DNA from: Hysterangium stoloniferum
Lineage: Eukaryota > Basidiomycota > Agaricomycetes > Hysterangiales > Hysterangiaceae
NCBI GenBank assembly: GCA_015178975.1
Contig: WHVD01000048.1
Span: 1 to 64,000 of the forward strand
Length of the DNA: 64,000 nucleotides
Direction: 5' to 3'
The position numbers and the translations under genes were made by a program. Shown one piece after another: positions 1 through 29,948 of this stretch (its first letter is position 1; each line of letters opens with the position of its first letter). The notes under the pieces were generated by a model. That model had not been told where the DNA came from. It saw nothing but the letters and a program-made list of their open reading frames with translations, and ran no database searches.

Positions 1-948
1 TCGGATGTTAGCCAAGGCTAGTGGCCCCAAATATATTTAACATGTTTGAGGACAACTGCAGAGCTTGCAGGGATAATCCAAAGTGACTATATGCGTTCTT
101 ACGTCGGCTCAAATCACACAGCTTTATAACATCTGCAACCCCAGCTGCAAAGTGAGTTGAATAAAGGGTTTGGTTGATATGTCTCCGGATTGTCCAAGAG
201 AAACGAATAAGAATTGTGTCCAATTGATGGTCGAAGACCTTTGTCAGGGTAACCATGTTCCTCCAACATTGATGTGGGGTTCTAATTAGACCCTACTGAC
301 ACACGACACACAAGTGCAAGGTGTGGCCACCTCGCACAGGATGTCACGTGCGTTGCGACATAAATGCCCAAGCAGGTCACTGGTGACTTGGTCCTTGGCC
401 GAGCTGCGCATGGCGTCACAATGCGGAAGGAGAGAAACCGAGAATGGCGATGGTATCGAGGCTGCGCCACTGTGGTACACGCGGATTCGGGGTCGGAAGA
501 TTCAATTATCAGTGTTAGAGTCAGCGCGATTATGTGCACACCAGACTCAGGAGATTCCAACTTGGATTCGTGTGCGTCAGAGTCAGACTGGTAGGAAAGT
601 TCCATGGACGGATGTAAGACGGTGCTGGAAGATAAAATAAAGTGAACGTTACCGTACGATGGGCCCAATGAACGAAGCAACCACATTCAGGTGATTGATG
701 TGATCGACGAGAAGCATGAAATCGTCGAAGAAGGTTCGTTAGAAGCAAATACTGCAACACAGTGAGTCCAACGTGTCGAAATCAAGACGAAGCGTCAATG
801 ACGCTATACTGATGTGATGTTGTCGAAGAAATTTTTTCAATACAGCTCCAGCAATATCTCGAAACCATGGATCTTGATGAATACAACATCGGAGAAGCTG
901 TGTATGATATGTATAATAGTAAGGTTCTTGTGTGTGATATTGTCTGTT

Positions 949-1095
949 ATGCTTTTAGTGGCAGGATGAAATGATGTGATGTCGCGACGCACACTTCCAA
1001 CCAGAATTCAATGCAACCTCTGATCGCCGTGAACTCCTCTACAGATAAGTTGACGCACGTGGCAGATCCCTTCCACGAGGGCCAAGGGAAAGTGC
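949..1095 (-). pseudogene. Fragment of a paralogue of the 775-aa loop gene (left arm)
   Basis: The minus strand encodes a short stretch including LSVEEFTAIRGCIEFW. It matches, at protein and nucleotide level, the last exon of the host gene at 8579-11261, which has CHVRQLSVIELNAIRAYF at the equivalent place. Only about 45 codons are alignable, and the left-arm copy shifts frame within the match where the right-arm copy reads through. I read it as a remnant of a gene-family member carried along in the duplicated arm, not as a working gene. The nearby ORFs on both strands have no visible family features. Confidence 0.6.
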
Positions 1096-1215
1096 CGCGG
1101 CAGGGTGTGGCGCTGCCGCGCAAGTGTCGCGACACCTCAAAATGCCCTCCAAATACGCATTTAACTAGCATAAAATAAATATAGTTTTGTATATATTCTT
1201 CATAATATATCATAT

Positions 1216-2468
1216 GTCTACTGGGGCTCTGTGTAAGGCTGTGGTATCAGCCTCACTCAGTCAGTAACGGACAGGACAGAATTATCGTGTTTTGTCGTTC
1301 TACTTTTCATACATGTGTTTTTAACTGCTATATAGGAATCGGAACCCTTGATCTAGATCCGCCGGGAGGGGTGTACGGAGAAAGCGATCGTGATTTGAAT
1401 CTCATCTCAAGTTTGGGCTCGGTCAGGGGAATAGTCGGAATGCGGTTGTGGTTGGCCGTGTCTGTGGTAAAGCCTGTCAGGATTACACTCTGCTAATTTA
1501 CCTTAAGACTGGGTTTTAATGTTTAAAATTGTGAATTAGCCACTTTTTTAAGAGTATATATCATTTAAAATGGTATTTTGAGTATTAACATTCAAAATAT
1601 AGCTATGTTTTAGTTTGAAGCCAAAATGTATATTCGCGGCAATTGTCCACTTTTTTGCGGCACCCCTCACAGCAGTGCGCGGCACCTACACAGTGAGATT
1701 CAATGCCTTGACAGAGTCCTGACCCAAAGCACACTATATCATTTGGTGGCACTCTGATCAGCTTTTCTACTATCCACTGTCATTGAGCATTGTTTCTTTC
1801 CAGTTATTCTACACTTCTGTAAGAGTTTAAGAATCTCTTACTTTGGAAAGGTACTATCCTCCCTCTTAGATAGTTGTCTCTTTTCTTATTTTTTATAACT
1901 TGCTCTTTGAATAGGTTAGGAGTACCTGCTGATAGATTAAGACAGTGAGAAGTTACCTCTTTCACTTATACAGTGTGAGTGGCTTCCACTCTAGACTGTA
2001 AGGTGTAGGTTTAGTGTTTATCTGTTTTGGTCACTCCCACAGCAACAGATTATATTATACCAGTCAGGGAAATATATATACAATACACTGCTTACTGGAC
2101 TTCCTGAAATTTACAGTATTCAGTTATTCCTCTTACATATTCTCTAATGGTATATCATCATAACATTTTTTTGAACTGATTCTCATGTATTATTTATATA
2201 GTTTCTGTTCCATCATTTTCACAAACTATTTGGATTTCATTCTAGGCCTGATATTGTCAATACCAAAGACAATAAACCAAAAATATCTATTCCTGGAAAA
2301 GGTATGCCACATTTCCCTTAGTGATGTCTTTATTTTACGAATTATATACATACTGTATGTACAGTAGTTGTTGGGCTGTACCATCAGGGACCTTATCCAC
2401 CTAGGATGTTACCTGGTTATAACTTGGACGGTATGTACAAGCCATACTCAATTATTTAATACAGAAGA
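1216..2468. other. Arm sequence without a recognisable gene
   Basis: About 1.25 kb between the paralogue fragment and the transposase remnant. It becomes AT-rich after about 1500. A stretch at 1215-1487 begins with tgtctac and ends with gattaca but has no flanking duplication. From about 1800 the sequence may be the 5' non-coding part of the transposon, but I could not find terminal inverted repeats that fix its edge. Confidence 0.5.
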
Positions 2469-5400
2469 ATGAATTCATTATTGACAGGAAATCCTTTTGG
2501 TTATTTTTTAAATCCAAATTATATCAACCTATCTATATTCAATTCCCAAGCCCAATCTCACACTGTTCCTGATGATATTGCTTCCAAGCCACCAATCCCC
2601 AATATTACCATTACTACTCCCTCAATTCCTTTATCAAAATTACCACCAAAGCCCAACATTACCATTACTGCTCCCTCAGCTCCTTTCCCAAAATTAGAGA
2701 AATTATCACCATCTCCTAACTTCATATCTGGGAACCATCTCAAGGATCTACAATCATCTATTGGACCAATGGAAAATAGAAAAGTTAAAGACTGGAATGG
2801 ATGGCCCAATGGTGAATGGTCATATCAGTTTACACATTCTGAATATGAAGTTCTCAACAATTATCTGTTCACTGGGCAACCATAGTGCTATGTGGGGATA
2901 AACACCATGATATAAATTCTTTAACTTTAGATGGTGGAAAGCATACAAAGTGTAAATGTTTGGGTATCATACATTGCAAAAATCCTGACTGTGATATTGT
3001 CATTCAGCCTCAGACCAGAGATGCTGGTATTCAGAAGCTAGTTGTGACTGTGGATGGAATTTACATCATGTGACATGCAATGTACTGTCCACACTTATTC
3101 ATTATGAAAATGGGATTATGTATCACAATGGTGGGACACATATTCACCAACAACCCACTCATAAACTCCATCTTCTTTCCAATAAACAATCTCAGCTCCA
3201 CAAAATATTTCAGGAACATCCAAAAATGGGCTCACTACAATTAGCTGTTGGCATTCCTGGATTTTCTGGTCCAGGTACATCTGTCACAGTGATATCCCCA
3301 GTTCTATTAAATGTTGATCGTATTTGGTATGGGAAGAAAATTGTTCACAAGAGAAATAAGATTATTGGAGGGACTGCAGATTGGAACAGTTGGCTGAGTT
3401 TGGATCTCATCATCCTGATTTCTTATGTTATAGTGAGGTTGGACCAACTACAATCCTTGTACTTCAAACTTCTTGGATGGAGATACAAATAATGCTAGAT
3501 GTTGTTAGTATGATGCTGTCCATGGATTTGTCTCTGATGCTGCACATGGCTATTAGAGAATGAGTGATTGGGTGCTTATAGTATCATATGTATATTCTCA
3601 ACATCTTTATTGTTGGGTTCCAGTTCTCTTCTCAGCAGCTAATGGCACCACTTCCAATCATTATCGAATACACTTTCTAATGCTGTTTCAAAGTATTGCC
3701 TCTCAATGTCAGAAGCAGGGACACCAATTAACTGATGAAATGTTTGCATGTGTTGTTGATTTCAGTCAAGCTCAGGCAAATGGCTTTGTGGAGGCTTTTA
3801 TTCAGTTTTGGTCAACTATGGAAGGCAATACACAAAATAATGAGGAATTAACTAAGGCAGAAAACTCACTTTTGAAAGGATGCTATCAGCATTTTTGTAC
3901 TGGCATCACTCTTCTCAAAAGGATTAGTGGTGTGGTACAACCCCAGCTACAGGACACTTTTGAATCATGTGCTCTAGGTTTGTTAGAGACGATCAATGTA
4001 GAGGCCTTTAAAGCACATGCTGCAGTGCTTATACATGACTTTCCAGGTGTTAAAAACTGGATGGATTGGTGGCAGCAGGATAGACCTCCTTGAATGCTTT
4101 TTAAGCCATTTAGAACCATGAAAGAAGATCTCTGGGAGCAACTACCAGATACTACAAATGCTGAGGAAGCCATGCATTTTAGACTTTACAGTGGGCTTGA
4201 TCATAATTTAGGACTTATGGAAGGTCTAGAGGGATTATTTTCATTTGTGAATCTTCTAGAGATGCAGGGCATTGCCAAACAATCAGGAATACCAGTGGCA
4301 TATGGGACTATGAAACCTTGGACTAAGAATGCTCATCAGTTAGAATGAACTAAAGTCCACTGAAATCCAACTTCTAAAAGATTTCAAAATGATGGTTGTC
4401 CACCAGATACTGCTAAGGCACTTATTCTTGGTACTAAAGGCAAGAAAAAGAAATCTGTTTTGATTCCAGGATACCAATGGAAATAAAACTCCTGTTGATA
4501 CTTCTCTTGAACTCATATACCAGGAAGTTGATCACCATTGGCCAGCATTACATCAAAATCTTTCACAACTGGATACTCAGTTATTACTCTCATTTTTATA
4601 CCATATTTTTGAAGAGTGTTTGATTACTGTTGGTGAGGTATTTAATGGTCAAGAAAGTATTATTGATTTCTACCAAACATGATCAGTTATGTGAACAACT
4701 TCAAAAGAGGTTTATTAAAGCAATTAATGAGCCTGACGTTCTCATGGGTTGGTTTGAGAGGGCTATTCAAGAGTTTCATAGCCATTCTTGTGATAATGTA
4801 ACACTTCCATTTCTTGAAGCCCAAATAATCCAACTCTGCTCTTGTAAAACCCAAGAAGAGGCACATTATCAACTCACCGGCCTGCCAAAGACACAAACAA
4901 TTCACTATCTTCAACTCAAACACTACCAGATGGCAAATGGCAATTTGCAATCATGGTTATACTCACAAGTTCTTCCAAGCTCAGATCATGTAGAGGCTTG
5001 TTGGAAATCTGGATACACATTCCTATCATGCTTGTTTTGTCCCTGGATTATGAGGGCTTGACAGAGACATGGTGTCTGCCTAAAAAGCTCAAATTATTTC
5101 AGAATTCAAACCATCTTGAAGGTCTCCACTACAACCTTGTAGGGAAAGCCATCTATTCACCATCTGTTCAACACTTTACATCAAGGTTCCATAATGGCAA
5201 TGCTATCTATGAGCATCATGGTTTACAACATTCAGGATCCTCAGTAAAAATACAAAAAGGTACCATATCACAATACCTTGAAGAGAAGATTCAGACAGTT
5301 TCAGGCATATCTTCATATGCCAGTGCTGTTATATATGTGTTGCAAGGCGGAATTAAATCACAGGAAGAGTTTCAAAAAATACAAAAAAAAGTCTTGGCTG

Positions 5401-6050
5401 ATCACCATATCCTTTAAAACTACAATTCTTCAGCAACACTGCCTCAAGCCACTCTAAATGCTACTATATTTTCTCTATTTCCATCAAAGAAACACTTTTG
5501 GCTTGCAAACCCCAGTAGGCATGATATTCAAGATTATATTTGTATATCACCACAAGACATTCCTCATGTGACTCCAAAGCAAATTCAAATCACTCCAAAT
5601 GCACCTAGTACACTCAAAAGATAAAATGGCAATCAATCTCCTATATCAATCCAATCTGATGAGGATGATACAGCCGCCTATCCCCAACAGAAGTATTCTC
5701 AAAGATACCTTCAAAGAGTAGAGTCTGATAGTGAAGGCCAGGTGGTCATTCATAAAGCAAAGCCCAAAAGACTCCCAAAATATATGTCTATGCCTGCCTT
5801 ATCTCCAATACCTGAGATTCCTGGGATAAGTTCTAATGCTTCATTATTTCCAATCTCATGTCACTGTGGACATACTGGTGATGGTAATGAGGAAGCAGCT
5901 CAAGGATTTACCAATGACTACATTCACTGTGATGAATGTCATAATTGGTCTCATGTTGCTTGCCAATGTGAAGGAAGAGCTAGTAACCTTGGTAATAAGC
6001 CATTCATTTGTGATGAATGTGATATGGTTCAGATTCAACTGGCATTGTGA
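2469..6050 (+). pseudogene. Decayed DNA transposon with GCM-like zinc region, DDE core, USP-like region and PHD finger (left arm)
   Basis: Successive open stretches in changing frames encode one recognisable protein order. A proline-rich N-terminus (2469-2885) ends in WPNGEWSYQFTHSEYEVLNN. A cysteine region CKCLGIIHCKNPDCDI (about 2950-3010) and a further Cys/His part follow, resembling GCM/FLYWCH-type zinc folds of Mutator-like elements. The DDE-like core (about 3520-4340) includes SDAAHGY, VVDFSQAQANGF and DTTNAEEAMHFRLY, a combination I recall from Agaricomycete transposases. A distal part (about 4950-5260) has HYNLVGKAIYSP and HFTSRF, similar to the His box of ubiquitin-specific proteases. 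A PHD-type Cys/His pattern (5851-6030) ends it. At least six frame changes or stops break it, and the same breaks occur in the right arm. Family assignment is from memory; domain homology is inference. Confidence 0.65.
5851..6040 (+). other. PHD-finger-like coding segment of the transposon
   Basis: One frame reads CHCGHTGDGN, then HCDECHNWSHVACQC, then FICDECD. The spacing of Cys pairs with a WSH core is typical of a PHD finger (C4-H-C3), a module that usually reads histone tails. Its place at the C-terminus of a transposase suggests a role in targeting to chromatin; that is inference. Confidence 0.6.
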
Positions 6051-6170
6051 CCTCAATCAGAATGGTATGTGAGCTTGTTTGATATTTGGATGACCTCTTA
6101 CAGTTGTGTTTTAAATAGCTCAACAGCTCAACAGCTAAATAATCATGCTATTCAACCTTTGCACAAGCAT

Positions 6171-8208
6171 TCCCCATCAGCATGCTTTGTGCAATGGAGC
6201 CTGTGTGTAATCCCGTCGTCAATTGGGATCACTGGCAGTCACACAAGTTGACAGGACCACAGTGTATTGTCCAGAGCAGAACAAGATACAGGCAAGTGCA
6301 GCGTACGGTAAGATCTAAGGTCCTGAAAACTTCCCGGCTACTTATACCGTACAACACGGTGATTATGTAATCACGTAAAACTAAAGGGTCCGTGCGTAAG
6401 ACTGGGGGCACCAGGATTACACTGCGGCCCCCGGATTCATTTCCACTGGGGGTCCGCTCACCAAACACGGACAGAGACAAAGATAACTATTAAAGCCCTG
6501 TGATTGGGTGGCTAATTCTCTCGGTATCTTAGCGTTAGCCGCAGTGATCGGCAAGTGGGGGATCTTTATAATGTCGTAATTAAGGGTACACCATTTCTAC
6601 AGACCAATTTTTACCCAGTCCATACAAGCTAATCACGAATAGCTCGATTGCGGGGTTATCTTGAACATCATCGTCATGATGGGCTCGATATTTCAAGCGT
6701 GATCCCAAACCCGATATTACTACAGGAGTTCATGAGGCGAATTCGTCGTCACCTTCCCTCGAGGCTTCCACACTGCTTCCATCTGTTTTCGTATATTGCT
6801 TTAGGTTTTGCATAGCTATGGGTGTACTACTTACTCTTAATTAACTGTACCGACTCTGCGGCAATCGTTACAAGCTTTTCAACTACGCACTGTGAGTGAT
6901 CGGAAATTTCCCAAATTCATTCGCCCTGACTTTCTTCACGATCACGGTAACTTCCAAAAATTTCCTCGGTAATGCAAGAAGCTGCAACCTGGCGAAAGAG
7001 TTTCTACTCATTCCACTCATTTGTCATACAGTCGTCATGGAGCTTTCCATAAAGACTCTGGGTCCTTACCTAATGGTTTGATCGCGGCAAAAGACGCGTC
7101 TGAGACCAGGATAGCCCCCGTAATCGCTTACAGTATCTCATTGAACGGGTAAAGCTGGGTCTTGGCAGTCTTCAATCCAAGAATAAATTCAGTCGGTAAC
7201 CCAAAAAAAACAAAGGCAACCCCGAGATTCACTCACGGTAAAGTATACTCTATCAGCCTTGTACAGCAATGTTCTAGCTTGTCAATGTCCCTATCCCAGC
7301 CACCACAACCTGAGGGTGGCTGCCCCCTGCAATCATATAGATCCCATAATCACTTCAGTGTTTGATTTACTTCAGCCGAACGCTTCCTCAATAGCCTTTG
7401 TCGGGAATTCAGGACCTTTCCCAATTTGTTAGCTACCTTGCCAATTGCATGCGTGATTTTTTGTCCTGCTCAATCGTATGCCGTAATAGTGGAGCCGGGA
7501 CCTGCCACGGCTCTATACGGTGTTGTTAGAACCAGAGTTGGTGGGGTTACTAGACTTCAGTCACTTAGATTCTCTGACGACGATGCCAAAATTGGACCAC
7601 GTTTTCCGTCATGGCGGAAGGAAAATTGGTCATGCAGCTAACTTAACCTCAAGCGCGACACCTATTGCTATCATACACCATCCTGTAATGTATTTACCTT
7701 ATATTCTTGACCTGTATTTCACTACCGCACTCGAGGCTAGAAAGAGCCAGTCAATTGCCTGCCACGGGGAGGCGGGGGAAGGATACATACATGATCTGTA
7801 GGCTGTGCTGTATATCATTGTTATACCGTGCATGATATGATTTCTGTCTTCGGAGGAGGTGACGGGGCACTTCTGACGGGTACTGTCGACTGCCAGTCCT
7901 TTGTGTCCAGTCTCGGCTCCGTCCGTCGTGTCATTATGATGTGTGATTGTGAGTATGATTGGTTGGGTGAATGGGTATCTAGACGTATACGTTCCGAAAC
8001 AGTCTGCCTATATGCGCTTGGGTTTTGTGCAAGCACCCCAGCAGGATCCTACCAACGTTTTACAACCTAACTTATCCCCAAATCAATTCTTTGTCTGATC
8101 GCCTCGGCCTCAATAAGAGTTTAAAATAAGTCTACAGTTCTCCACTTCTGTATATAGCTAGCATTTTGACCACTACAAAAGGACCAGACACCGAGAAAGT
8201 GTTCACAA
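6171..8208. other. Loop DNA, no supported gene
   Basis: Unique sequence of balanced composition beginning at the inner edge of the left arm. It carries several short ORFs of 60 to 93 codons on both strands, none with recognisable motifs or convincing splice partners. It may be a decayed host gene, but I cannot identify it. Confidence 0.5.
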
Positions 8209-8578
8209 TCAGTGACCCAGTTCACCGACATCCACGATACCCCATCCGAACTGAGTTACCACCGATAAACAGCGACTATTTGATAGTTCCGACGACCCGG
8301 TGAACGGCGTGGCGATCAAGTGCAGGAGATGGCGAGCATGTTTAATGATGTCTGAGCATCTCCACGCTGTACAGCTATCCTCTGTCGACCGGCCAATCGC
8401 CTTGCAGTTGCTAATAACCCGGGAAAGAGCGCCGATAGTGGATTCTGTACGCACTTGGACGCACGCATATTTCAGATCCGGAGATCTAGTTATGAACTTG
8501 ATTGTCATTCTTATTATGTTCCGAATAGACCACAACATCCATGTGTCCGGGGTTAAATTTCCCGACATCGGCAATTCT

Positions 8579-11261
8579 CTAGTATCTCAGTTGATTACGA
8601 CAGTATTTGCGGAAGAATATAGGGACGTGCCGTATGATTGAAACCATAAAAGAACCAACGATAATGAGCTGGCTGTTATTGGCTATGAACAGCGATTTGT
8701 TGTCAAGGAAGTTCTCCAGTATTTCCACGTTGATGAACAAAGATCTCGTAATCTTAGTGCTTTGAGTCAATGTCTGGATACCCATTCTGATATGTCTGAG
8801 CACAGAATTGAATACCTCTCCAGATATGTCTAGAAACCATGTGTCCTGGGAAACACAATGCATGAAAAGCCGCTGGAATCTGTAGACAAAACGTCCGTGT
8901 TGATTCAACGAGGTCTCAAAGTAGGCTCTGATGGCATTAAGCTCTATTACAGACAGCTGACGCACATGGCATACGCTTTCGATGACATCCGCAATGGCAC
9001 CAATGAGGAGGGGATGTTGGTTATCAGAGTCCGATAAGTAGCGGGCAATTAACACAATAAATGTAGAAGAAATCTCATCCAAGCTGGTGTGAAGCATCAA
9101 TGTTGTGATGGAAATATAGAGTGGTGTCGTAATGGGGGCTCTTGATGTATTCGTATCCCACCATCGAGCGCCAGGGCAACATAAAAAGGCGCGAACCAAT
9201 GATGCCATCAACTTCAAGGTCATAGTGTCATGATTGTTCGTTAGCTGTATTTCATCATAACTCAACCAGAAGTCCCCTAAGATTCTCGACGCTCGTTCTC
9301 GAATTTGAAGCGGGTATGTGGGTCTACAAAGCGTAAGTAGGTCAAGTCCATCCCAATGCTTGACGCCGCTGAATTATCCTTACCTCAACAAATCAATGCT
9401 TTCTTGAATTACTATTCCCCATCTTGGAAGAGTTGCAGATTTGTGCAGGAACTTGTTAAGCACCTTGTGTCGAGATGAGAAATCCATCATTAGCCCATAC
9501 ACAGTCAACTTTGCCATCAACCTAGCCTTTCTTGCATTGTAAAGGACCCGCAACCCAACCCTTTCCAACGCGAATGCTACGGGATGGCCTAGGTCTATTT
9601 CAATGCTGGAAGTTGTGTCAAACTCCACCTCCACTCCTGGGTCGAGATTGGATGTGGTAGACCTCCCCGACATCGTAATAACAGTCGGTGGTTCATAGTA
9701 GGCCGTTTCGCCTTGACACTGACACAGGCAGCATGTAAAGATTCCGTGATAACAGCACTATATACTTGATTACTCACCAAATCGTCAACCCAAACCTCTA
9801 CATGGTTTGGAGACAGTGGGATGTGCTGGTCGTCATCGGGGGCTAGGTAACATAAATTGTGCCCAGTTTCGGTGCAACTCCATCGTCCTCGAAGTTGCGC
9901 CCGGAAAATCTCCCTCATACCCGTGTTAATGATTTGATCCCGTTGTTCTGATTTCAATACATGTGGGGAATCCAAGGGTGGTCGCTCATCGACGCCCTCT
10001 CGGAGGTTGGACGTGGTGTTGGTGGAACTCCATGGTGTCTTGCCAAAAGCGGGTAGATCATGGTAGCTCATATTTCCGTTGCACTGAAACGCACAGGATG
10101 TGACAAGATTACATGAAAATGGCTTTATACTTTACTCACCAACTCGTTAACCCAAACCTCTACATGGTTTGCAGGCAATGATATGTGCTGGTCGTCATCG
10201 GGTGCCCGGTAACATAAATCGTGCCCAGGATCGTTACAGCTCCATCGTTCTCGAAGTTTCGCCCGGAATATTTCCCTCATTCCCGTCTTAATAATCAGGT
10301 CCCTCTCTTCCTGGCTCAATACACCTGGGGAAACGAATGGTAACTCCTCAACGCCTTCTCGGAGGTTGGATGTGGTGTTAATAGACCTCTCTGGCATCGT
10401 AACAACGGTCGGTGGGTCACGGTGGCCGTTGTTTTCTTGACACTGAAACGCGCAGGAAGTGATACAGACTACATGATAATGATGATAATGGGATTATACT
10501 TTACTCACGGGTTTGAACTCGTCAGCCGAAACCTCTACGTGGTTTGCAGACAGCATGTCCTGGTCGTCATCGGGGACCCGAGAACTTGAAACCAAAGGTG
10601 GTAGCTCCACAACGTCTTCTCGGAGGTTGGCTGTGGTGTTGATGCACCTCTCCAGCATCTTGACGGCGGTCAGTGGATCATGGTAAGTCGTTTCTCCTTG
10701 GCACTGCAACTCGCAGGATGTGATACAAATTACATGATTATAGCATAATACCTTGCTCACCATCTCGTCAACCCGGACCTCTCCATCGTTTCCGGACAGT
10801 GGCATATGCTGGTGATCATCTCCCTCAATGCCTTCTTGGTGGTCGGATGTTGTGTTGGCGGGCCGCCCTGACATCTTAACAACAGTTGGTGGGTCATGGT
10901 AACTTGTTTCTCCTTGGCACTGAAGCGCGCATAATGTGATATACATTTCATGATAATAGCATTATATCTCACTCACCAACTCGTCAACCCAAACCTCTAC
11001 ATAGTTTGCAAACAGTGGTATGTGTTGGTCGTCATCGGGGGCCCGATAACATAAATCGTGCCCGGATTTGGTACAACTCCATCGTTCTCGGAGCTTCAGC
11101 CGGAATTTTTCCCTCATTCTCATATCAAGCATACGCTCCAGTTCCTCCGAGCTCAATACATCTGGGGAAACTAATGGTGGTGGCTCCTCGACGCCTTCAA
11201 AGAGGGTCTCACTCGTTACCATATCGTGAATCCTCAGAGTCGTCTCGTTGAAAGTAGACAT
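8579..11261 (-). CDS. Spliced host gene, about 775 aa, with tandemly duplicated exons; function unknown
   Basis: My model has seven exons: 10977-11261, 10761-10919, 10509-10703, 10140-10442, 9778-10083, 9384-9718 and 8579-9323. All six introns are GT-AG and 56 to 66 nt long, and the joined length is exactly divisible by three (776 codons with stop). Exon 1 carries a core with W61, C63, H68, C71-Y72, H80 and W91, in the pattern WSC-x4-HDLCY-x5-DDQH-x8-VEVWV. The core recurs in full in exons 4 and 5 and in shortened form in exons 2 and 3. Exons 2 to 6 each begin with CQGET or a close variant followed by a YHDPPTV-like stretch. Residues from about 440 to 775 are unique, look helical, and contain CHVRQLSVIELNAIR. 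The W-x-C/CY/W pattern resembles a short fungal domain I have seen in Agaricomycete proteins, possibly metal-binding; no function is known to me. Fragments of a paralogue lie in both palindrome arms. Confidence 0.75.
9719..11261 (-). repeat. Tandem exon duplications inside the 775-aa gene
   Basis: Exons 2, 3, 4 and 5 are phase-0 at both ends and start after a near-identical acceptor. Each begins with TGC or TGT and CAA/AAC codons and ends with a VEVWVDEL-like stretch before gtgag. Exon 1 ends the same way and exon 6 begins the same way. The period is about 160 to 305 nt of exon plus an intron of about 57 to 66 nt. Symmetrical phases mean units can be gained or lost without a frame change. Confidence 0.8.
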
Positions 11262-11302
11262 TGATGGGCAATAGTCATACGCACACCAGAAGGGGATGCT
11301 GG

Positions 11303-11311
11303 GTTTTTATA
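11303..11311 (-). promoter_or_regulatory. Possible TATA box of the 775-aa gene
   Basis: The minus strand reads gcgctataaaaaccc about 45 nt upstream of the proposed ATG at 11261. The distance suits a TATA element with a short leader. No other promoter signal was identified. Confidence 0.35.
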
Positions 11312-11938
11312 GCGCAATTAGCCGGAGAGTTTATTTCCAAGTATAGCATTATGCTCGTGCTTACACAGGATACACAGCGGTTCAACCATTCTTTTTAAAC
11401 AAAGCCCACTCATCCTCCTTCAATCATATACGCTCCAAGATACGCTCAAATTAGCTTGGTATTTTCGACACCAATTTCTTCCTTACACTTCATCAGATCA
11501 TCTACTGCAGAAAGAACACATGGCAGCTAGGAATTTGGTAAATTGTCATCGCATCGCAACAAGAACGCATGCTGCGCGTCTATGGCGTAAGCCGATGGGA
11601 AAATTACAAGCATAGCATGGGGGCCGTAATTGCACACTATTCACGGTGTTTCACCCTTCCTCAGGTTTCTTAAATAAGACCACTGATAAACATATAAGAT
11701 TCAGAATATTCCCAAGTCTTTTTAACTTCTTACGGTGCACGAGATCCTCTTTTGCCGAAAACGGGCAATAATTGCCAGGCAGAGCAATTATCAAATTGTC
11801 ACTGCATGATGAGGTAACTCAACAAGAGTTCTTGGGCGCCTGAGTTCATGACCAGAGCGATTCAGCCGCCTGCTAATCGACAAGTGACATCGTCACGATG
11901 CCCTCAATAATCCAGTGCAAATGAGGTGAAACCTTGAG
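11312..11938. other. Upstream flank of the host gene, no gene seen
   Basis: About 630 bp between the 775-aa gene and the copia insertion. No convincing ORF or repeat. It ends with ataag (11939-11943), the left copy of the copia target-site duplication. Confidence 0.5.
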
Positions 11939-11943
11939 ATAAG

Positions 11944-12214
11944 TATTAAAAATAGTATGAGTTGACTCTATTGCAATACACAATATACAAGGGTTTAATA
12001 AGCTTGTAATAAAAGTACTTGTGTCTCAATATCTTGTGTCAGTTAGTGTAGCACCTCCTGACAATATAGGTTGGATGCACTGGGAGGTGTATTGTGGTTC
12101 TGACACACATTAACCTCCAAATGCATGGTCCACAATTAGCATCTTCATATGAAAAGTTGCAATAATTGGTGGACTCCCCCTATAAAAAGGTGTGTTTCAT
12201 CATCAAATTTAACA
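11944..12214 (-). repeat. Copia 3' LTR
   Basis: 271 bp; on the minus strand it starts tgttaaattt and ends tatttttaata. It carries a TATAAAAA-like signal. It is almost identical to 17247-17517. Confidence 0.93.
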
Positions 12215-12252
12215 CACCCCCTTGATGAAACACTTTTTAATCCCATATCTGT

Positions 12253-17720: not shown

Positions 17721-18397
17721 CAGTTGTTCCAAGTACCTAAGGTGGAGTTCAGAATTTAAAAGAAATCCCGCCACAGACAAATTGTGCCATATCTCCAGAG
17801 TGGTAATTAAGACATAATAACATGTTATGTGTATGATATTGTATTTGGTGTTATGACAGGGTATTTAGTATTCAGTGAAATGTCATTGCAATGGTTCCCC
17901 TTAATTCAATTCTCTCTATATTTGCATATAAGCTGGTGGAATACTATGTATTGTATCCAAACATCACCTGAGCTGTGAGGCCTAATACTACCTTTTGAAC
18001 GAGTTATACTACTCACTACCAAGTGTGCATACAGTAAGTGGCACAACTTGTTCAAAGGGTGGTATTAAGCCTCACACCTTAGGGTATATTCATACACAAT
18101 ATATGGTATTAGTCCCACCAGCCTATATTCAAATTGAAGAAGAATTGAATGAAGGGCAACAAATTGCACTGATATTTCACTGAATATTAAATAGCATCTC
18201 ATTAGCCAACTATATACATAAATATATATACCTATACTATATACATAAATATATAGACCTAGACTATATAGCACATACCCCAAATTGTTTTGTCTTAATT
18301 GGGTCCCTTTCCTGAGATAAAGCACAATTTGTCTGTGGGTTGAAAGCAGAATTTTTTTTAAAACTTTGAACTCCACCTTAGGTACCCAGAATAACTG
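17721..18397. mobile_element. Foldback MITE 1 (Tc1/mariner-like, TA-flanked)
   Basis: 677 bp that is close to a full-length palindrome. Both ends read cagtt then a diverging few bases, then gtacctaaggtggagttca inward, and acagacaaattgtgc pairs further in. The two halves remain alignable to the centre near 18050. A TA dinucleotide lies outside each end, as expected for Tc1/mariner target sites. No transposase is encoded. A short further fragment of the family lies at about 19290-19400 in the opposite orientation. Confidence 0.85.
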
Positions 18398-18399
18398 TA

Positions 18400-21281
18400 A
18401 GTTCTTTGCGACTATATCAAGTTGCTTATCCGTTGGTTTTTTACAAGTTTTTTTGCATCTTTTACCCTAGTTCCTGAAGGTCCTTCCAATATAGTTGCCC
18501 ACCTGTAGAATTTTGGTTATGTAGCATTTTAGTTTTGGAGTAATGTAATGCCAAACCTTGTATCCCTCACTTCACTTATTGGCCTTTCTGATCCCCAGAG
18601 GATAGAGGTGACAACTGTTCCATGGAATTAGTTAACCACAACACATGCCCAAGGTGTTATAATTGAAGGGTTATCACATGCTCTGTTAGAAATTAGGATC
18701 TAATAGTGAACTCAGTCTCGTATAATAGATATAACAGACTATATATAAAATACCTAATAGTGAACTACAGTACATGTAAGCATACTGGAACACATAATAA
18801 TAAAAAGCGGCTCACCTCAGTCTCATATAATAGACATAATGGACTGAGGTGTGGGGGTATTCTGGCTATAGTATATATACTAGGAACAGCAATTAGTGAT
18901 ATGAACGAAGGTGATATGTATGTAGTAAGGGGAATATGAGACAATGAGACATGCGGGCCCCACCTTTGTTCCTTATGTGCCCATGTGGTCCCTTGACCCT
19001 GCATACTCTTGTTCATCTAAATATAGCAAGAGGTTTTACGGTGTTATACAACATGCTCCTGATCACAAGGACAACTAAGGCAGTTACATATACTATACCA
19101 CAAGGTTATGAGGTACTGATCATGCCTTGCAACCATTTCAGTTGCTATGTCCCATATTTTTCCGATATTGTCTACCCTCTCATTTCTATTCCTTAAACTT
19201 CATATAAGAACAATCAATGTTGCCACTCAATACCTCAGTCGATTCTCACTGTGTGTCGACTGAGGTATGTTACCCATCTATATTTTCTATATTGTATAGA
19301 TCTATATATTTATGTATATAGTTGGCTTTATGAGATGCTATTTAATATTTAGTGAAATATGAGTGCAATGGCTTCCTTTCATTCATGTCAGTCCAAGTCC
19401 ATGATAATTCCTTTGCCTTAGACAGTATGTACTGTATATTGGCAGTCTACTTGGTGATGTTGCACTAGATATATAACAAAGATTGAATATTGCTATGAAA
19501 TCAGCTGAGTTTGGTCAAAAAGAGAGGTTGGATGATGTTGATCATGAGTCTACAATGATATTGCTGTCTTATACAACTGTTATATGTATCTAGTCAGTTG
19601 GACTATACATATATGTGATGGAGGCTGGATATGGTCAGGATGTTGGAAGTGAGATCAGCTGAGAATTTAATATACTATAGAGACCTTAAGTTCCTAAGTC
19701 AAGTACTAAACCAAGGATCAAAGACTGTGAATGGGTGGGATTTAGCTTCAGTTTATATGCTGCACCATTACAAACTATGCAGCTGTCCTGGTTTCAAATG
19801 AATTTGTGACTTCAGGATGGGCAAGGAATAGGATTAGAAGAGGAATGAGCCTGCAGCTCAGGAAATATAAACGTATTCAGATGTAAGTTTAAATGTAATG
19901 TGATGTAACACAATATTCAGATTGGATTGAAAATACTATTTCTCCATGTATATATAGATAGTGGAATTATTTTAATAACAATCCAGAGATATAACAAGGA
20001 TGCAAGGGATACATATATGTTAAGCTCAGGCCTTACTGGGCAGGAGTGAACTGGGGAAAATCTGTAGAAGTTCCAAGGCTTCATCTTATGTGCTGTGCTT
20101 TTGCATGATCATTGGGTCTTAGCTTCAGACAGGGGGGGGGGTACAATTATCCCAGAAAGTCTGAAAGTACATGACTGGTCAAAGAGTTGGGAAACCCAGG
20201 GGTTCTGAAATATACTGGTGTCAAGTTTCATAGTTTAGCTTATAGAAGATAGGTTGTAGCTAAGTTGATATGCTGATTGAATTGTGGTTTAAAAAGATTA
20301 ATAGACTATATAGACTAATTTATTATTGTACTACTAATCTGCTGAAACAAAAAGACAAGACATGTGAGTGAGAAAATAACAGGATTAACCATTCTGGAGT
20401 ATATGGGTCAAGTTGATATGGGAACAGGTACCAAAACACAATATCAAGTGAATATATACATGTCAAAATGTAATGAGGAACAAACTGGGTCACAGATTAG
20501 TAAGTGTCTAGAGAATATGAGAAGTCCATATGAGGTCCAGGTCAGAAGCCACTCTTATAGCAAGGAAGGGCTATTACTGGGAGGATCTGGGTCCTAACAA
20601 CACAATACAATGAGACTAAGATGGGAAAACAACAAGAACAATAAACCCCAATGAGAATGGATATTGGATACTAAGACATCAGCTGAGATATATTGATTGG
20701 GTATAACATTATAGCTGAGAATATGGTCAGCATGGTCATAACAATATTCATTCTCTTAGGTGGTGTTTTTTTTTTCTGTATTATTATAGCTTTCTCTTTG
20801 GTTGTGTCATGAAACAGGTAAATTTGATATCAATTACTCAAGCCATCGATTAAACTGTCATGCTACAGTCCATTTTACCACCCTCAATACAATCTAGGTT
20901 TGATTAGTATACCTTTTGTTCTCTAATCTTACAGAGACAATTGCTATGATGCACATATTCAACATACCAATATTACTGCTTAACCCATATTGACCCTACT
21001 AGCTTTCTAAACTATTGATGTTTGATACATGTAGTTAAAATAGCTATTTGTGAATGAACAGTCAATACTCAAGGTGTATATCTTTTCTTAGTTACGTTAG
21101 TTTAAGACAATTGTAATTGTGCATGTGCAGTTGGCAGCATCATTTTATGTATATAAACAGCAGAGCTGAATTATGAAATACAAGCCTTTTAAACCATCTT
21201 AAACTACACAGTATCATCCCATTTGCATTTATGCATCTTATTCCACATGTTCTAGGTTTACAGGATCTTACCTTCTCAGGT
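18400..21281. other. AT-rich loop DNA without genes
   Basis: About 2.9 kb with no supported coding region. It holds a MITE 1 fragment (about 19290-19400), a direct repeat built on cagtctcgtataatagat and cagtctcatataatagac (about 18710 and 18818), and two perfect short inverted repeats built on acctcagtc (18813-18851 and 19231-19268). Confidence 0.6.
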
Positions 21282-21283
21282 TA

Positions 21284-21900
21284 CAGCCCTTTGCATTATG
21301 TAAGGCACATGCTAGATTTGCAGGAAAATATTGCTGAAAATTGTGAACCATGTAACTCTCTCAATAATTGACCAATTGCCTTGTTTCCCAAAATTGCAGT
21401 CCATTTGAGCTTGTGAACCAATTCATAAGCCAACAGATGTGTCCCTCCAAATGAGCTTGTAATATGTTGTTTTATATGTATCTAGGTAGTAAAAAATGAC
21501 AGTGCCTGGCTTTTGCTGTCTAAATACCAGCTGCAAACCAGTATGAGGGTAGTTGTATGCATTTACTCAGCAAACTCACTCACATTAGCTCTGACTGCAA
21601 AAGCCAAACACTGTCATTTTTTACTACATAGATACATGTAAAACAACATATTACAAGCTCATTGGGAGTGACACATCTGTTGGCTCATGAATTGGTTCAA
21701 GCTCAAATGGACTGATTTTGGGAAACATGCTGTAGGTCAAATTTTGGAGTTATAACATTGTAATATACTAGATATATAGTAAAATACATATATGAAGTTA
21801 CAAGACAATTGGTCAATTATTGAGAAAGCTACAAAGTTTGCAATTTTCAGCAATATTTCCCCACAAGTCTAGCACACACCTTACATAATGCAAAGAGTTG
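21284..21900. mobile_element. Foldback MITE 2 (TA-flanked)
   Basis: 617 bp nearly palindromic over its whole length. The left end reads cagccctttgcattatgtaa and the right end, reversed, reads caactctttgcattatgtaa. Inner segments such as gccaacagatgtgtc and ataattgaccaatt pair with their reverse complements. TA lies outside both ends. It has no coding capacity and a sequence unrelated to MITE 1 apart from the layout and the ca at each tip. Confidence 0.83.
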
Positions 21901-22099
21901 TAATGAGAATTCTCCTTGTCATTAATATGACGTACCTTAGTTACACAATCCAAATGAAAGCAATTTGTTCCCTTTCCCATATTCTATTCTACCTTTAAAT
22001 ACTCACAAATAATAACCCTAAATTAATAGACTACTGACACACTCAGCCCTTTCATATATTATAGTTGTTGTCTTTAAGTTGCTGCTAAGTAATTAAGGA

Positions 22100-22952
22100 T
22101 TCTGTGAAGACCTGTTCCTGGAGACTCTACAAAGTATTTCTCAGATATCATATCAGGTTCCAAACCATCTTCCAGACTAGTATCAAGATCCAGAATCCAC
22201 TGGAACCTGACCCTCATCCCTCAAGTACCCTTCAACTCAAATCACATTCTGGTATTCTGTCCTTGACTAGGCACCTCCTGTTATGACCCCATCAGACTCT
22301 GCCCTTTCCCAGCTGGCATCTCAGGACACTTGATCATTTCCTCACATTTGTTCTATGTATATACATCTTTAATCCAAGACCCAACCTTCACTCAATCATG
22401 CCTGTCAACCCTTGTCACTTCTCTATGCCAATGTTCCAACCTGCCTGGAACCCATGGCATTCTCAGAAAAACTGACTTACCTTTCCCTCTCACTTCTTTT
22501 TTGCCACCTCCTCTCACACCTGATCGGCCTCCTGCTGCCTCTTCTTCACATGCACCACATCCCAGTGCTTGCACGCAACCTCTTCCACTGCCAGTTTCTT
22601 TTCCTCAGCCTCTATGGCCACCAGCTCCTCCCTTCTCCTTCCACTCCTCCTCCTTGTGTGCCTTCCTCTTCTCCTCCAGCAGTCATCGATGTTCCTGTGC
22701 ACTAGATGGTCCACTCGGGACTGACATGGTAGTGACCGTCAACTGAACTGGGAATGGCTTTGACCCCGAACCCATGGTCATGTTGGTCGAGGAAGAGAAG
22801 TGGAAAATCAAGCACCAGAACCCCTCGAATTTTTATATGTAAATTTTTACCGAGTCACATGATGTTTTGACACACCAACCATACCCGACAAGTTTTATGT
22901 ACGGAATCTAGATTTTCGGCCTCCTTGGGATTTCAGCCAAATGGGGGGATAC
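22100..22952 (+). mobile_element. 3' internal fragment of Ty3 family B
   Basis: This segment runs up to the family B LTR at 22953 and stands where family A elements carry their antisense gene region. Part of it (about 22135-22460) recurs in reverse orientation at about 58848-59040, again next to LTR debris. On the minus strand (about 22392-22785) lies a glutamate- and lysine-rich segment starting MTMGSGSKPFPVQ, laid out like the family A antisense region. Fossil; only the 3' end of the element is present. Confidence 0.6.
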
Positions 22953-23680
22953 TGTTACAACTGTGTCGCAACCTGACAGTCCCCGAGGTTATCGCCACAT
23001 TTCAAGTTATTGTTCAAGTCATCACATCAGAAACTGTCAGTCTCCCGATGCTGATGTATGCTTTCGTGGTGATCAAACTCTGTTTATGCCCCCATCAAAA
23101 TATACTCATACTATCTGGTTAAACTCTGACACATCCCTTTTTATTATGATGATCTGTTCTACTCTATGTTTCACATATGTCTATATATACTTGTAACCCT
23201 CAGAGTATTTCCTTTTCTTGTAATCCCACTCTCAGTTATTTAACAGCCTCTGAACTAATTGTAACCTTCCCGTTCCTAGTCAAGTTTATTTGTCAGTAAT
23301 GTTTCCGCTCTTCTCTTAGTTGGTATTTTCTAGATGCCAATAATTTGTATATGAATCTGCTGTAGTTGTAGTTAATGGGCAATCAGAATATCAACTCAGG
23401 ATACCCTTTTCACCTCTAGAAGTCTCATACTAAGTATTCTGCTATCTGCCTTCGTGTGCACTTACCCACTTTCGGTTTCTGACCCTCTTGGCCCGACACT
23501 CGACTTATCCTTCCGATTGGTAGTTTGCTGAGAGGTATTTGTTAGGACTAGTCTTCGCCTGTCTGAAATTTAAGGACACCCAACAGATAGTTGCGAGAGT
23601 GCAGCACATAAGCTGAAGCCAAGTCCTTCCGATCAGTCCTTGTCGCCCTACCAACACCAGTCAGTTTTCAGTTCTTAACA
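22953..23680 (+). repeat. LTR of Ty3 family B, copy 1
   Basis: 728 bp, starts tgttacaactgtg and ends ttcttaaca. A second copy lies at 60466-61207. The flanks do not match each other, in keeping with a 3' LTR of a partial element. About 105 bp of unassigned sequence separates it from the right palindrome arm. Confidence 0.8.
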
Positions 23681-23907
23681 ATAGTAGTACTTCCCATTTT
23701 GGGCAAGGGCACCCAAACCAGGTCTACATGTGATTAATATGCACTAAGACAATTGAAGGTGAATTTGGATTTGGAAACTTACAAGAGATGCTTGTGCAAA
23801 GGTTGAGTAGCATGGTTATTTAGCTGTTGAGCTGTTGAGCTATTTAAAACACAACTGTAAGAGGTCATCCAAATATCAAACAAGCTCACATACCATTCTG
23901 ATTGAGG

Positions 23908-26900
23908 TCACAATGCCAGTTGAATCTGAACCATATCACATTCATCACAAATGAATGGCTTATTACCAAGGTTACTAGCTCTTCCTTCACATTGGCAAGC
24001 AACATGAGACCAATTATGACATTCATCACAGTGAATGTAGTCATTGGTAAATCCTTGAGCTGCTTCCTCATTACCATCACCAGTATGTCCACAGTGACAT
24101 GAGATTGGAAATAATGAAGCATTAGAACTTATCCCAGGAATCTCAGGTATTGGAGATAAGGCAGGCATAGACATATATTTTGGGAGTCTTTTGGGCTTTG
24201 CTTTATGAATGACCACCTGGCCTTCACTATCAGACTCTACTCTTTGAAGGTATCTTTGAGAATACTTCTGTTGGGGATAGGCGGCTGTATCATCCTCATC
24301 AGATTGGATTGATATAGGAGATTGATTGCCATTTTATCTTTTGAGTGTACTAGGTGCATTTGGAGTGATTTGAATTTGCTTTGGAGTCACATGAGGAATG
24401 TCTTGTGGTGATATACAAATATAATCTTGAATATCATGCCTACTGGGGTTTGCAAGCCAAAAGTGTTTCTTTGATGGAAATAGAGAAAATATAGTAGCAT
24501 TTAGAGTGGCTTGAGGCAGTGTTGCTGAAGAATTGTAGTTTTAAAGGATATGGTGATCAGCCAAGACTTTTTTTTGTATTTTTTGAAACTCTTCCTGTGA
24601 TTTAATTCCGCCTTGCAACACATATATAACAGCACTGGCATATGAAGATATGCCTGAAACTGTCTGAATCTTCTCTTCAAGGTATTGTGATATGGTACCT
24701 TTTTGTATTTTTACTGAGGATCCTGAATGTTGTAAACCATGATGCTCATAGATAGCATTGCCATTATGGAACCTTGATGTAAAGTGTTGAACAGATGGTG
24801 AATAGATGGCTTTCCCTACAAGGTTGTAGTGGAGACCTTCAAGATGGTTTGAATTCTGAAATAATTTGAGCTTTTTAGGCAGACACCATGTCTCTGTCAA
24901 GCCCTCATAATCCAGGGACAAAACAAGCATGATAGGAATGTGTATCCAGATTTCCAACAAGCCTCTACATGATCTGAGCTTGGAAGAACTTGTGAGTATA
25001 ACCATGATTGCAAATTGCCATTTGCCATCTGGTAGTGTTTGAGTTGAAGATAGTGAATTGTTTGTGTCTTTGGCAGGCCGGTGAGTTGATAATGTGCCTC
25101 TTCTTGGGTTTTACAAGAGCAGAGTTGGATTATTTGGGCTTCAAGAAATGGAAGTGTTACATTATCACAAGAATGGCTATGAAACTCTTGAATAGCCCTC
25201 TCAAACCAACCCATGAGAACGTCAGGCTCATTAATTGCTTTAATAAACCTCTTTTGAAGTTGTTCACATAACTGATCATGTTTGGTAGAAATCAATAATA
25301 CTTTCTTGACCATTAAATACCTCACCAACAGTAATCAAACACTCTTCAAAAATATGGTATAAAATGAGAGTAATAACTGAGTATCCAGTTGTGAAAGATT
25401 TTGATGTAATGCTGGCCAATGGTGATCAACTTCCTGGTATATGAGTTCAAGAGAAGTATCAACAGGAGTTTTATTTCCATTGGTATCCTGGAATCAAAAC
25501 AGATTTCTTTTTCTTGCCTTTAGTACCAAGAATAAGTGCCTTAGCAGTATCTGGTGGACAACCATCATTTTGAAATCTTTTAGAAGTTGGATTTCAGTGG
25601 ACTTTAGTTCATTCTAACTGATGAGCATTCTTAGTCCAAGGTTTCATAGTCCCATATGCCACTGGTATTCCTGATTGTTTGGCAATGCCCTGCATCTCTA
25701 GAAGATTCACAAATGAAAATAATCCCTCTAGACCTTCCATAAGTCCTAAATTATGATCAAGCCCACTGTAAAGTCTAAAATGCATGGCTTCCTCAGCATT
25801 TGTAGTATCTGGTAGTTGCTCCCAGAGATCTTCTTTCATGGTTCTAAATGGCTTAAAAAGCATTCAAGGAGGTCTATCCTGCTGCCACCAATCCATCCAG
25901 TTTTTAACACCTGGAAAGTCATGTATAAGCACTGCAGCATGTGCTTTAAAGGCCTCTACATTGATCGTCTCTAACAAACCTAGAGCACATGATTCAAAAG
26001 TGTCCTGTAGCTGGGGTTGTACACACCACTAATCCTTTTGAGAAGAGTGATGCCAGTACAAAAATGCTGATAGCATCCTTTCAAAAGTGAGTTTTCTGCC
26101 TTAGTTAATTCCTCATTATTTTGTGTATTGCCTTCCATAGTTGACCAAAACTGAATAAAAGCCTCCACAAAGCCATTTGCCTGAGCTTGACTGAAATCAA
26201 CAACACATGCAAACATTTCATCAGTTAATTGGTGTCCCTGCTTCTGACATTGAGAGGCAATACTTTGAAACAGCATTAGAAAGTGTATTCGATAATGATT
26301 GGAAGTGGTGCCATTAGCTGCTGAGAAGAGAACTGGAACCCAACAATAAAGATGTTGAGAATATACATATGATACTATAAGCACCCAATCACTCATTCTC
26401 TAATAGCCATGTGCAGCATCAGAGACAAATCCATGGACAGCATCATACTAACAACATCTAGCATTATTTGTATCTCCATCCAAGAAGTTTGAAGTACAAG
26501 GATTGTAGTTGGTCCAACCTCACTATAACATAAGAAATCAGGATGATGAGATCCAAACTCAGCCAACTGTTCCAATCTGCAGTCCCTCCAATAATCTTAT
26601 TTCTCTTGTGAACAATTTTCTTCCCATACCAAATACGATCAACATTTAATAGAACTGGGGATATCACTGTGACAGATGTACCTGGACCAGAAAATCCAGG
26701 AATGCCAACAGCTAATTGTAGTGAGCCCATTTTTGGATGTTCCTGAAATATTTTGTGGAGCTGAGATTGTTTATTGGAAAGAAGATGGAGTTTATGAGTG
26801 GGTTGTTGGTGAATATGTGTCCCACCATTGTGATACATAATCCCATTTTCATAATGAATAAGTGTGGACAGTACATTGCATGTCACATGATGTAAATTCC

Positions 26901-27487
26901 ATCCACAGTCACAACTAGCTTCTGAATACCAGCATCTCTGGTCTGAGGCTGAATGACAATATCACAGTCAGGATTTTTGCAATGTATGATACCCAAACAT
27001 TTACACTTTGTATGCTTTCCACCATCTAAAGTTAAAGAATTTATATCATGGTGTTTATCCCCACATAGCACTATGGTTGCCCAGTGAACAGATAATTGTT
27101 GAGAACTTCATATTCAGAATGTGTAAACTGATATGACCATTCACCATTGGGCCATCCATTCCAGTCTTTAACTTTTCTATTTTCCATTGGTCCAATAGAT
27201 GATTGTAGATCCTTGAGATGGTTCCCAGATATGAAGTTAGGAGATGGTGATAATTTCTCTAATTTTGGGAAAGGAGCTGAGGGAGCAGTAATGGTAATGT
27301 TGGGCTTTGGTGGTAATTTTGATAAAGGAATTGAGGGAGTAGTAATGGTAATATTGGGGATTGGTGGCTTGGAAGCAATATCATCAGGAACAGTGTGAGA
27401 TTGGGCTTGGGAATTGAATATAGATAGGTTGATATAATTTGGATTTAAAAAATAACCAAAAGGATTTCCTGTCAATAATGAATTCAT
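23908..27487 (-). pseudogene. Decayed DNA transposon (right arm copy)
   Basis: Inverted copy of 2469-6050 with the same domain order and nearly all the same frame changes. The PHD-like segment lies near 23920-24110, the USP-like segment near 24700-25000, the DDE-like core near 25610-26440 and the proline-rich start at 27487. One extra single-base difference lies near 26030, where the reading frame differs from the left arm. Shared decay shows that the element was already broken when the arm was duplicated. Confidence 0.65.
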
Positions 27488-28860
27488 TCTTCTGTATTAA
27501 ATAATTGAGTATGGCTTGTACATACCGTCCAAGTTATAACCAGGTAACATCCTAGGTGGATAAGGTCCCTGATGGTACAGCCCAACAACTACTGTACATA
27601 CAGTATGTATATAATTCGTAAAATAAAGACATCACTAAGGGAAATGTGGCATACCTTTTCCAGGAATAGATATTTTTGGTTTATTGTCTTTGGTATTGAC
27701 AATATCAGGCCTAGAATGAAATCCAAATAGTTTGTGAAAATGATGGAACAGAAACTATATAAATAATACATGAGAATCAGTTCAAAAAAATGTTATGATG
27801 ATATACCATTAGAGAAATATGTAAGAGGAATAACTGAATACTGTAAATTTCAGGAAGTCCAGTAAGCAGTGTATTGTATATATATTTCCCTGACTGGTAT
27901 AATATAATCTGTTGCTGTGGGAGTGACCAAAACAGATAAACACTAAACCTACACCTTACAGTCTAGAGTGGAAGCCACTCACACTGTATAAGTGAAAGAG
28001 GTAACTTCTCACTGTCTTAATCTATCAGCCAGGTACTCCTAACCTATTCAAAGAGCAAGTTATAAAAATAAGAAAAAGAGACAACTATCTAAGAGGGAGG
28101 ATAGTACCTTTCCAAAGTAAGAGATTCTTAAACTCTTACAGAAGTGTAGAATAACTGGAAAGAAACAATGCTCAATGACAGTGGATAGTAGAAAAGCTGA
28201 TCAGAGTGCCACCAAATGATATAGTGTGCTTTGGGTCAGGACTCTGTCAAGGCATTGAATCTCACTGTGTAGGTGCCGCGCACTGCTGTGAGGGGTGCCG
28301 CAAAAAGTGGACAATTGCCGCGAATATACATTTTGGCTTCAAACTAAAACATAGCTATATTTTGAATGTTAATACTCAAAATACCATTTTAAATGATATA
28401 TACTCTTAAAAAAGTGGCTAATTCACAATTTTAAACATTAAAACCCAGTCTTAAGGTAAATTAGCAGAGTGTAATCCTGACAGGCTTACCACAGACACGG
28501 CCAACCACAACCGCATTCCGACTATTCCCCTGACCGAGCCCAACTTGAGATGAGATTCAATCACGATCGCTTTCTCCGTACACCCCTCCCGGCGGATCTA
28601 GATCAAGGGTTCCGATTCCTATATAGCAGTTAAAAAACACATGTATGAAAAGTAGAACGACAAAACACGATAATTCTGTCCTGTCCGTTACTGACTGAGT
28701 GAGGCTGATACCACAGCCTTACACAGAGCCCCAGTAGACATATGATATATTATGAAGAATATATACAAAACTATATTTATTTTATGCTAGTTAAATGCGT
28801 ATTTGAGGGCATTTTGAGGTGTCGCGACACTTGCGCGGCAGCGCCACACCCTGCGCGGCA

Positions 28861-29005
28861 CTTTCCCTTGGCCCTCGTGGAAGGGATCTGCCACGTGCGT
28901 CAACTATCTGTAGAGGAGTTCACGGCGATCAGAGGTTGCATTGAATTCTGGTTGGAAGTGTGCGTCGCGACATCACATCATTTCATCCTGCCACTAAAAG
29001 CATAA
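28861..29005 (+). pseudogene. Fragment of a paralogue of the 775-aa gene (right arm)
   Basis: Reads GICHVRQLSVEEFTAIRGC in one frame, against SVCHVRQLSVIELNAIRAYF in the last exon of the loop gene. It is the cleaner of the two arm copies. The alignable stretch is short and no splice partners were found, so I treat it as a gene relic. Confidence 0.65.
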
Positions 29006-29692
29006 CAGACAATATCACACACAAGAACCTTACTATTATACATATCATACACAGCTTCTCCGATGTTGTATTCATCAAGATCCATGGTTTCGAGATATTG
29101 CTGGAGCTGTATTGAAAAATTTCTTCGACAACATCACCATCAGTATAGCGTCATTGACGCTTCGTCTTGATTTCGACACGTTGGACTCACTGTGTTGCAG
29201 TATTTGCTTCTAACGAACCTTCTTCGACGATTTCATGCTTCTCGTCGATCACATCAATCACCTGAATGTGGTTGCTTCGTTCATTGGGCCCATCGTACGG
29301 TACGTTCACTTTATTTTATCTTCCAGCACCGTCTTACATCCGTCCATGGAACTTTCCTACCAGTCTGACTCTGACGCACACGAATCCAAGTTGGAATCTC
29401 CTGAGTCTGGTGTGCACATAATCGCGCTGACTCTAACACTGATAATTGAATCTTCCGACCCCGAATCCGCGTGTACCACAGTGCGCAGCCTCGATACCAT
29501 CGCCATTCTCGTTTCTCTCCTTCCGCATTGTGACGCCATGCGCAGCTCGGCCAAGGACCAAGTCACCAGTGACCTGCTTGGGCATTTATGTCGCAACGCA
29601 CGTGACATCCTGTGCGAGGTGGCCACACCTTGCACTTGTGTGTCGTGTGTCAGTAGGGTCTAATTAGAACCCCACATCAATGTTGGAGGAAC

Positions 29693-29941
29693 ATGGTTAC
29701 CCTGACAAAGGTCTTCGACCATCAATTGGACACAATTCTTATTCGTTTCTCTTGGACAATCCGGAGACATATCAACCAAACCCTTTATTCAACTCACTTT
29801 GCAGCTGGGGTTGCAGATGTTATAAAGCTGTGTGATTTGAGCCGACGTAAGAACGCATATAGTCACTTTGGATTATCCCTGCAAGCTCTGCAGTTGTCCT
29901 CAAACATGTTAAATATATTTGGGGCCACTAGCCTTGGCTAA
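29693..29941 (+). other. 82-codon ORF at the outer end of the arm, unassigned
   Basis: An open stretch begins MVTLTKVFDHQLDTILIRFS and ends just before the outer limit of the arm; the left arm has it on the minus strand at 8-256. It may be a further exon of the paralogue relic, being in the same orientation and about 700 bp downstream of it, but no similarity to the loop gene is visible. Coding status is uncertain. Confidence 0.3.
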
Positions 29942-29948
29942 CATCCGA

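Follow-up and report, generated by a model that had tools for sequence, protein, structure and literature searches.

How did a 6.2-kb segment come to be present twice, in opposite orientation, at the very start of a long contig of Hysterangium stoloniferum, and does the pair belong to the genome or to the assembly? The contig (C420, 595,804 bp) is one of 554 in an assembly of 111,116,353 bases, and its bases 1–64000 make up the window, the whole 64,000-nucleotide stretch analyzed here. The content is eukaryotic, and protein resemblance points to a fungal, probably basidiomycete, host; the copia element had first suggested Drosophila, but the translations spoke against it. A COX1 search gave no hit. 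By self-BLAST, window 1–6170 matches the reverse complement of 23788–29948 with 99.66% identity over 6175 columns, including 2 mismatches and 19 gap columns, which far exceeds chance expectation. The inverted pair is real in the assembly and, judged from its sequence, probably also in the genome.

1–6170, plus strand: left arm, its outer end truncated by the start of contig C420 (self-BLAST)
6171–23787, unstranded: spacer (loop) of 17,617 bp, mostly other repeats in the parts searched (6171–8671, 12500–15000, 18400–23787)
23788–29948, minus strand: right arm, with a second copy, including both flanks, in contig C331 (12975–19147)

A preliminary description had called the structure a giant palindrome, with 6.2-kb arms that align throughout with a drift of about nine bases around a 17.6-kb loop. 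These dimensions are correct (1–6170 against 23788–29948; 6170 − 6161 = 9), and so is the inverted orientation of the arms, but palindrome is too strong a term for two arms 17.6 kb apart, which form a spaced inverted repeat. It had also stated that the outer end on the left is not seen, and position 1 is indeed the first base of C420. As the contig starts there, and as homology at related loci (e.g., C388:36463–37503 beside 37504–38123) is continuous across the equivalent of 29948|29949, the left outer end is not a repeat boundary.

Contents and setting of the inverted repeat

Read from the outside inward, each arm consists of part of a relic, Y (1–1078 on the left), followed by part of a dispersed coding repeat, X.

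1079–6170, plus strand: repeat X in the left arm, 107 bp shorter than its extent in the right arm
1232–1488, unstranded: 257-bp insertion in X, shared by the two arms and C331 and missing from all eight other fetched copies that cover it
23681–28876, minus strand: repeat X in the right arm, adjoining repeat Z at 23680, whereas X extends further in six other copies
28877–31000, unstranded: multicopy relic Y, crossing the outer boundary of the right arm; its inner part corresponds to left-arm 1–1078

Copies of X are mostly 84–96% alike among the matches listed (33 scored of 1,843 candidates), and inverted X pairs within one contig are also found on C554 and C20, so that substrates for recombination between inverted copies are common. 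Y has many relatives at a likeness of about 75%, on C388, C63, C547, C257 and other contigs (40 scored of 923 candidates). The open frames of X gave no Pfam family over threshold, the best sub-threshold match being a PHD finger (0.0011), and comparison with the PDB likewise returned PHD fingers (E 0.00066 at best). X may be the product of a KDZ-type transposon with a WRKY-GCM1-like zinc motif. The terms PHD, GCM1 and WRKY are absent from the main text of PMC12730594. Since the arms combine X and Y, the left inner edge lies inside X and the outer edge is the contig end, we reject the idea that they are the terminal repeats of one transposon, in agreement with the composite nature that had been ascribed to them.

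The loop holds repeats of several kinds.

6206–6422, unstranded: 217-bp high-copy repeat, with 97–100% copies on many contigs, 35 bp inside the left junction
11944–17517, minus strand: copia-type LTR element with 271-bp terminal direct repeats that differ by 2 mismatches
22470–23680, unstranded: interspersed repeat Z, adjoining the right arm

The 217-bp repeat carries TGTAATCC/GGATTACA close to its ends; it appears MITE-like and is probably a small element that was active recently. The copia-type element has matches of 98–99% over the whole 2.5-kb query in at least 26 other places (40 scored of 256 candidates). At 21273–21909 lies a palindromic fold-back repeat, roughly 0.6 kb long, with an inner stem of 107 nt at 93%; it has copies of about 90% on many contigs, and contig C331 terminates inside it, at window 21338. 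Relics of a multicopy gene-like family occupy window 6838–11300 and recur at C420:440–584 kb and C539:229–358 kb, with pieces scoring on C420, C539 and C198 (40 scored of 695 candidates). One open frame of this family, 8579–9373 on the minus strand, gave no Pfam family over threshold, and by eye the protein resembles the arm relic Y.

We reject a second haplotype for the whole region on the basis of one gene family and of the pieces searched. The family of second-largest RNA polymerase subunits has three loci (C519, C223, C100), by our inference as many as Pol I, II and III should contribute to an assembly with one copy of each, and searches for near-identical second copies of 6171–8671 (apart from the 217-bp repeat), 18400–21337 and 57000–59000 found none, with short fragments reaching 98%. 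Concerning the persistence of the structure, the preliminary description had proposed recent formation, gene conversion between the arms, or a special chromosomal setting, subtelomeric or dispensable DNA being its examples. The first two accord with the near-zero substitution between the arms described below, whereas a subtelomeric setting found no support in a genome-wide search for the TTAGGG repeat, with no five-unit run on C420. Such runs occur at two places, both interstitial (C97:47085–47114 and C112:544633–544668, on contigs of 150,716 and 2,014,536 bases, respectively). Each of them lies about 1.8 kb past an X copy (C97:41237–45308; C112:546451–550538).

A third copy and the differences between the arms

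Contig C331 (21,596 bp) is a reverse match to window 32315 down to 21338. Against window 21338–30816 it shows zero true substitutions, as the six nominal ones at 24462–24469 form a 6-column block of two run-length indels (an A run longer by one base and a T run shorter by one), and along the inner flank of the right arm (23787–21338) it differs by one indel and no substitution. Because C331 holds the right arm with both flanks, that arm and its junctions are backed by two contigs; and because it is a further near-identical copy of the segment, the likeness of the arms is no peculiarity of the inverted pair. Among 40 scored of 148 candidates for junction 6170|6171, C420 alone spans it.

Farther outward C331 and the window diverge, by 4.5–7% of bases per 200-base bin beyond 35.2 kb. 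C420 has a tandem pair of roughly 1.48-kb units (30830–32315 and 32315–33785, 95% alike) where C331 has one, and in 88 varying columns C331 agrees with the second unit in 68, with the first in 6 and with neither in 14 (the first 13 columns of this alignment belong to a slice of C331 that is longer). C331 may be a leftover allele of the right arm. Another contig, C131, is a 93.7–95.8% relative of the outer flank, with no X match in the fetched 20 kb. The flank common to C331 and C131 (94–96%) includes a 331-aa open frame with no Pfam match (34472–35467, minus strand).

In pairwise alignment the arms differ by substitutions at 6143 and 6151 and otherwise by single-base run-length indels. Both substitutions fall in the final 28 bp of the left arm, on the loop side, and over the other 6142 bp the left arm, the right arm and C331 are identical in three-way alignment except for run-length indels. 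Near-zero substitution of this kind argues for recent formation or homogenization. Private indels number 16 in the left arm, 3 in the right arm and 11 plus the 6-column block in C331. All 16 of the left arm lie at 438–2139, that is, within its outer 2139 of 6170 bp (0.347^16 = 4e-8 under an even spread, a post hoc figure), and its inner 4031 bp have none; those of C331, with the block, all lie within arm coordinates 4472–5622. Over 2140–6170 the counts are 0 for the left arm, 2 for the right arm and 11 plus the block for C331. The clustering in the left arm suggests an under-polished contig tip.

Two features mark the inner end of the left arm.

6093–6170, plus strand: probable hybrid zone, beyond right-type bases at 6073/6092 and with T at 6143/6151, unlike the right arm and C331
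6159–6194, unstranded: small hairpin with a 12-pair stem, one bulge and an 11-nt loop whose first base (6171) directly follows the arm

All 12 other fetched X copies have A at 6073 and 6092, where both arms and C331 have G. The left arm carries T at both 6143 and 6151, and the right arm and C331 carry C. In an ungapped comparison from a shared word at 6156, T occurs at 6143 in two of the 12 other copies (C24, C20; a gapped comparison counted seven) and at 6151 in six (C232, C112, C547, C54, C97, C63), and none has T at both; chance figures for these sites are post hoc. As the arm is right-type at 6073/6092 and then takes on T states that are found singly in other X copies, its last 28–78 bp probably derive from another version of X, making a hybrid repeat at the junction. 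Alternatively, the two T states may be fresh mutations. The hairpin may be a further scar or a product of chance; it was chosen after the fact, and the window has 12 hairpins of at least 11 pairs.

Origin of the left arm

The explanation that we favor, tentatively and with somewhat less than even confidence, is that two oppositely oriented copies of X recombined ectopically and so gave rise, recently, to an inverted duplication. A broken end at the left locus would have borne a stub of a different X copy, which now forms the last 28–78 bp of the left arm. By folding back in cis on the same strand, or by invading the sister or homologue, this stub would have paired with the right-arm X. The paired stub could then have primed outward DNA synthesis that crossed X, entered relic Y and covered at least 6.1 kb, perhaps running past the contig end, while the 17.6-kb segment between both X sites would have remained single copy as the present loop. 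We infer the break, the fold-back or invasion, the origin of the hybrid edge, the direction of copying and its total length from the finished sequence. In favor of such a duplication, true substitutions number zero in 6142 bp of the arms vs. 2 in the last 28 bp, and the left arm stops inside X and not at the end of an element. The 257-bp insertion shared with C331, the right-type bases at 6073/6092, the abundance of X with its other inverted pairs and a layout like that of human inverted duplications also speak for it. Against it, the left junction is known from one contig, at its tip, C331 is a near-identical copy outside the pair, and the loop is long for a fold-back. The hybrid turns on two sites at which no other copy of the 12 has both T states, and this slightly lowers our confidence in the duplication and slightly raises that in a chimera. 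We expect the arms as such to have no function.

A different history, which we regard as unlikely, is that the inverted pair is older and that its arms have been kept alike by gene conversion, from arm to arm or from C331 to an arm. The conversion tract would stop 28–78 bp before the left inner edge, where old variants would remain, and the location of both differences at the very edge of the arm (2 in 28 bp) is what such a tract would leave. C331 and the right arm show a similar style, with no substitution over 21338–30816 and then a rise to several percent. Conversion does, however, require that a left arm was already there and that its X and Y were arranged as in the right arm, and the differing edge is seen at the inner side alone, the outer edge lying beyond the contig.

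The main technical rival is a chimera of assembly or library origin, in which the contig tip was put together from reads of the right arm or C331 and the true sequence to the left of 6171 is another copy of X. This too seems a minor possibility. It draws on the tendency of assemblers to err in near-identical multi-copy sequence, on the position of the arm at a contig tip, on the confinement of its 16 private indels to the outer 2139 bp and on C420 being the only contig to span 6170|6171 among the candidates scored. An assembler jump between X copies should, however, leave kilobases of true X next to the loop, if the reads are kilobases long, and only 28–78 bp of foreign X adjoins it. Moreover, the consensus of the left arm looks independent, as its inner 4 kb are free of private indels, unlike the right arm and C331, and at a real repeat, too, loop-anchored reads would leave errors that increase toward the tip.

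Less probable still, though compatible with a real duplication, is that the left arm actually comprises tens or hundreds of kilobases of the right side of C420, collapsed by the assembler. The duplication would then be very young and seeded by the X pair, and the left 6.2 kb would be the part that loop-anchored reads could reach.

We consider it very improbable that C331 supplies the outer part that the left arm lacks and has a 2.4-kb tail of chimeric origin, so that there are two copies and not three. In that case the arms would continue outward over the equivalent of 29949 to about 35800 and diverge increasingly, from 0 to several percent. C331 does extend beyond the arm (from 12974 to about 8700), where it is related to the right flank, its own error cluster at 4472–5622 lies near the expected chimera site, and searches with the loop piece 18400–21337 and the right-flank piece 57000–59000 yielded no allelic contig (no match longer than 300 bases exceeds 94%). 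Against this, C331 holds the inner flank of the right arm virtually unchanged and carries C, not T, at 6143 and 6151. Finally, an artefact from a missed adapter or a fold-back read would yield a palindrome without a loop and is ruled out by the 17,617-bp spacer.

Relation to known inverted duplications

If the inverted duplication is real, it is a fresh natural example from a eukaryotic genome rich in repeats, with a readable junction and caught before substitutions accumulated; it would then show dispersed repeats restructuring such regions. If it is an effect of assembly, it cautions that a contig tip lying in near-identical repeats can pass for a giant palindrome. The locus is undescribed among the matches listed in literature searches on fungal inverted segmental duplications and palindromes, KDZ transposons, repair mechanisms and assembly-artefact inverted repeats.

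Mammalian sex chromosomes carry large palindromes whose arms are kept alike by arm-to-arm gene conversion. The present locus resembles them in having near-identical inverted arms with a spacer, and differs in that its arms are made of repeats and relics and show no sign of long persistence. Comparable too are human inverted duplications, in which, according to excerpts of PMC3907307, the spacer was single-copy in all 21 sequenced junctions (766–70,466 bp) and a hybrid Alu or LINE lay at the spacer-inversion junction in three of the 21. Two inverted copies, a kilobase-scale spacer and, probably, a hybrid dispersed repeat are features in common, whereas the arm at a contig end, the repeat-rich region and the third near-identical copy are particular to the locus described here; the same excerpts place 20 of 21 sequenced spacers below 15 kb (PMC3907307), and 17.6 kb is long for a fold-back loop.

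Foldback inversions in Saccharomyces cerevisiae have been attributed to single-stranded hairpins of small- and large-loop classes, and the secondary steps are reported to have given no indication of break-induced replication that depends on POL32 (PMC7467729). These are likewise inverted duplications, and the large-loop class may have its parallel here, but the yeast work used a laboratory genetic system and the present case is a static sequence alone (PMC7467729). Short foldback insertions at breaks are also on record (excerpts of PMC11724301). An inverted duplication is thus of a known kind, and no new kind of system is indicated by this locus.
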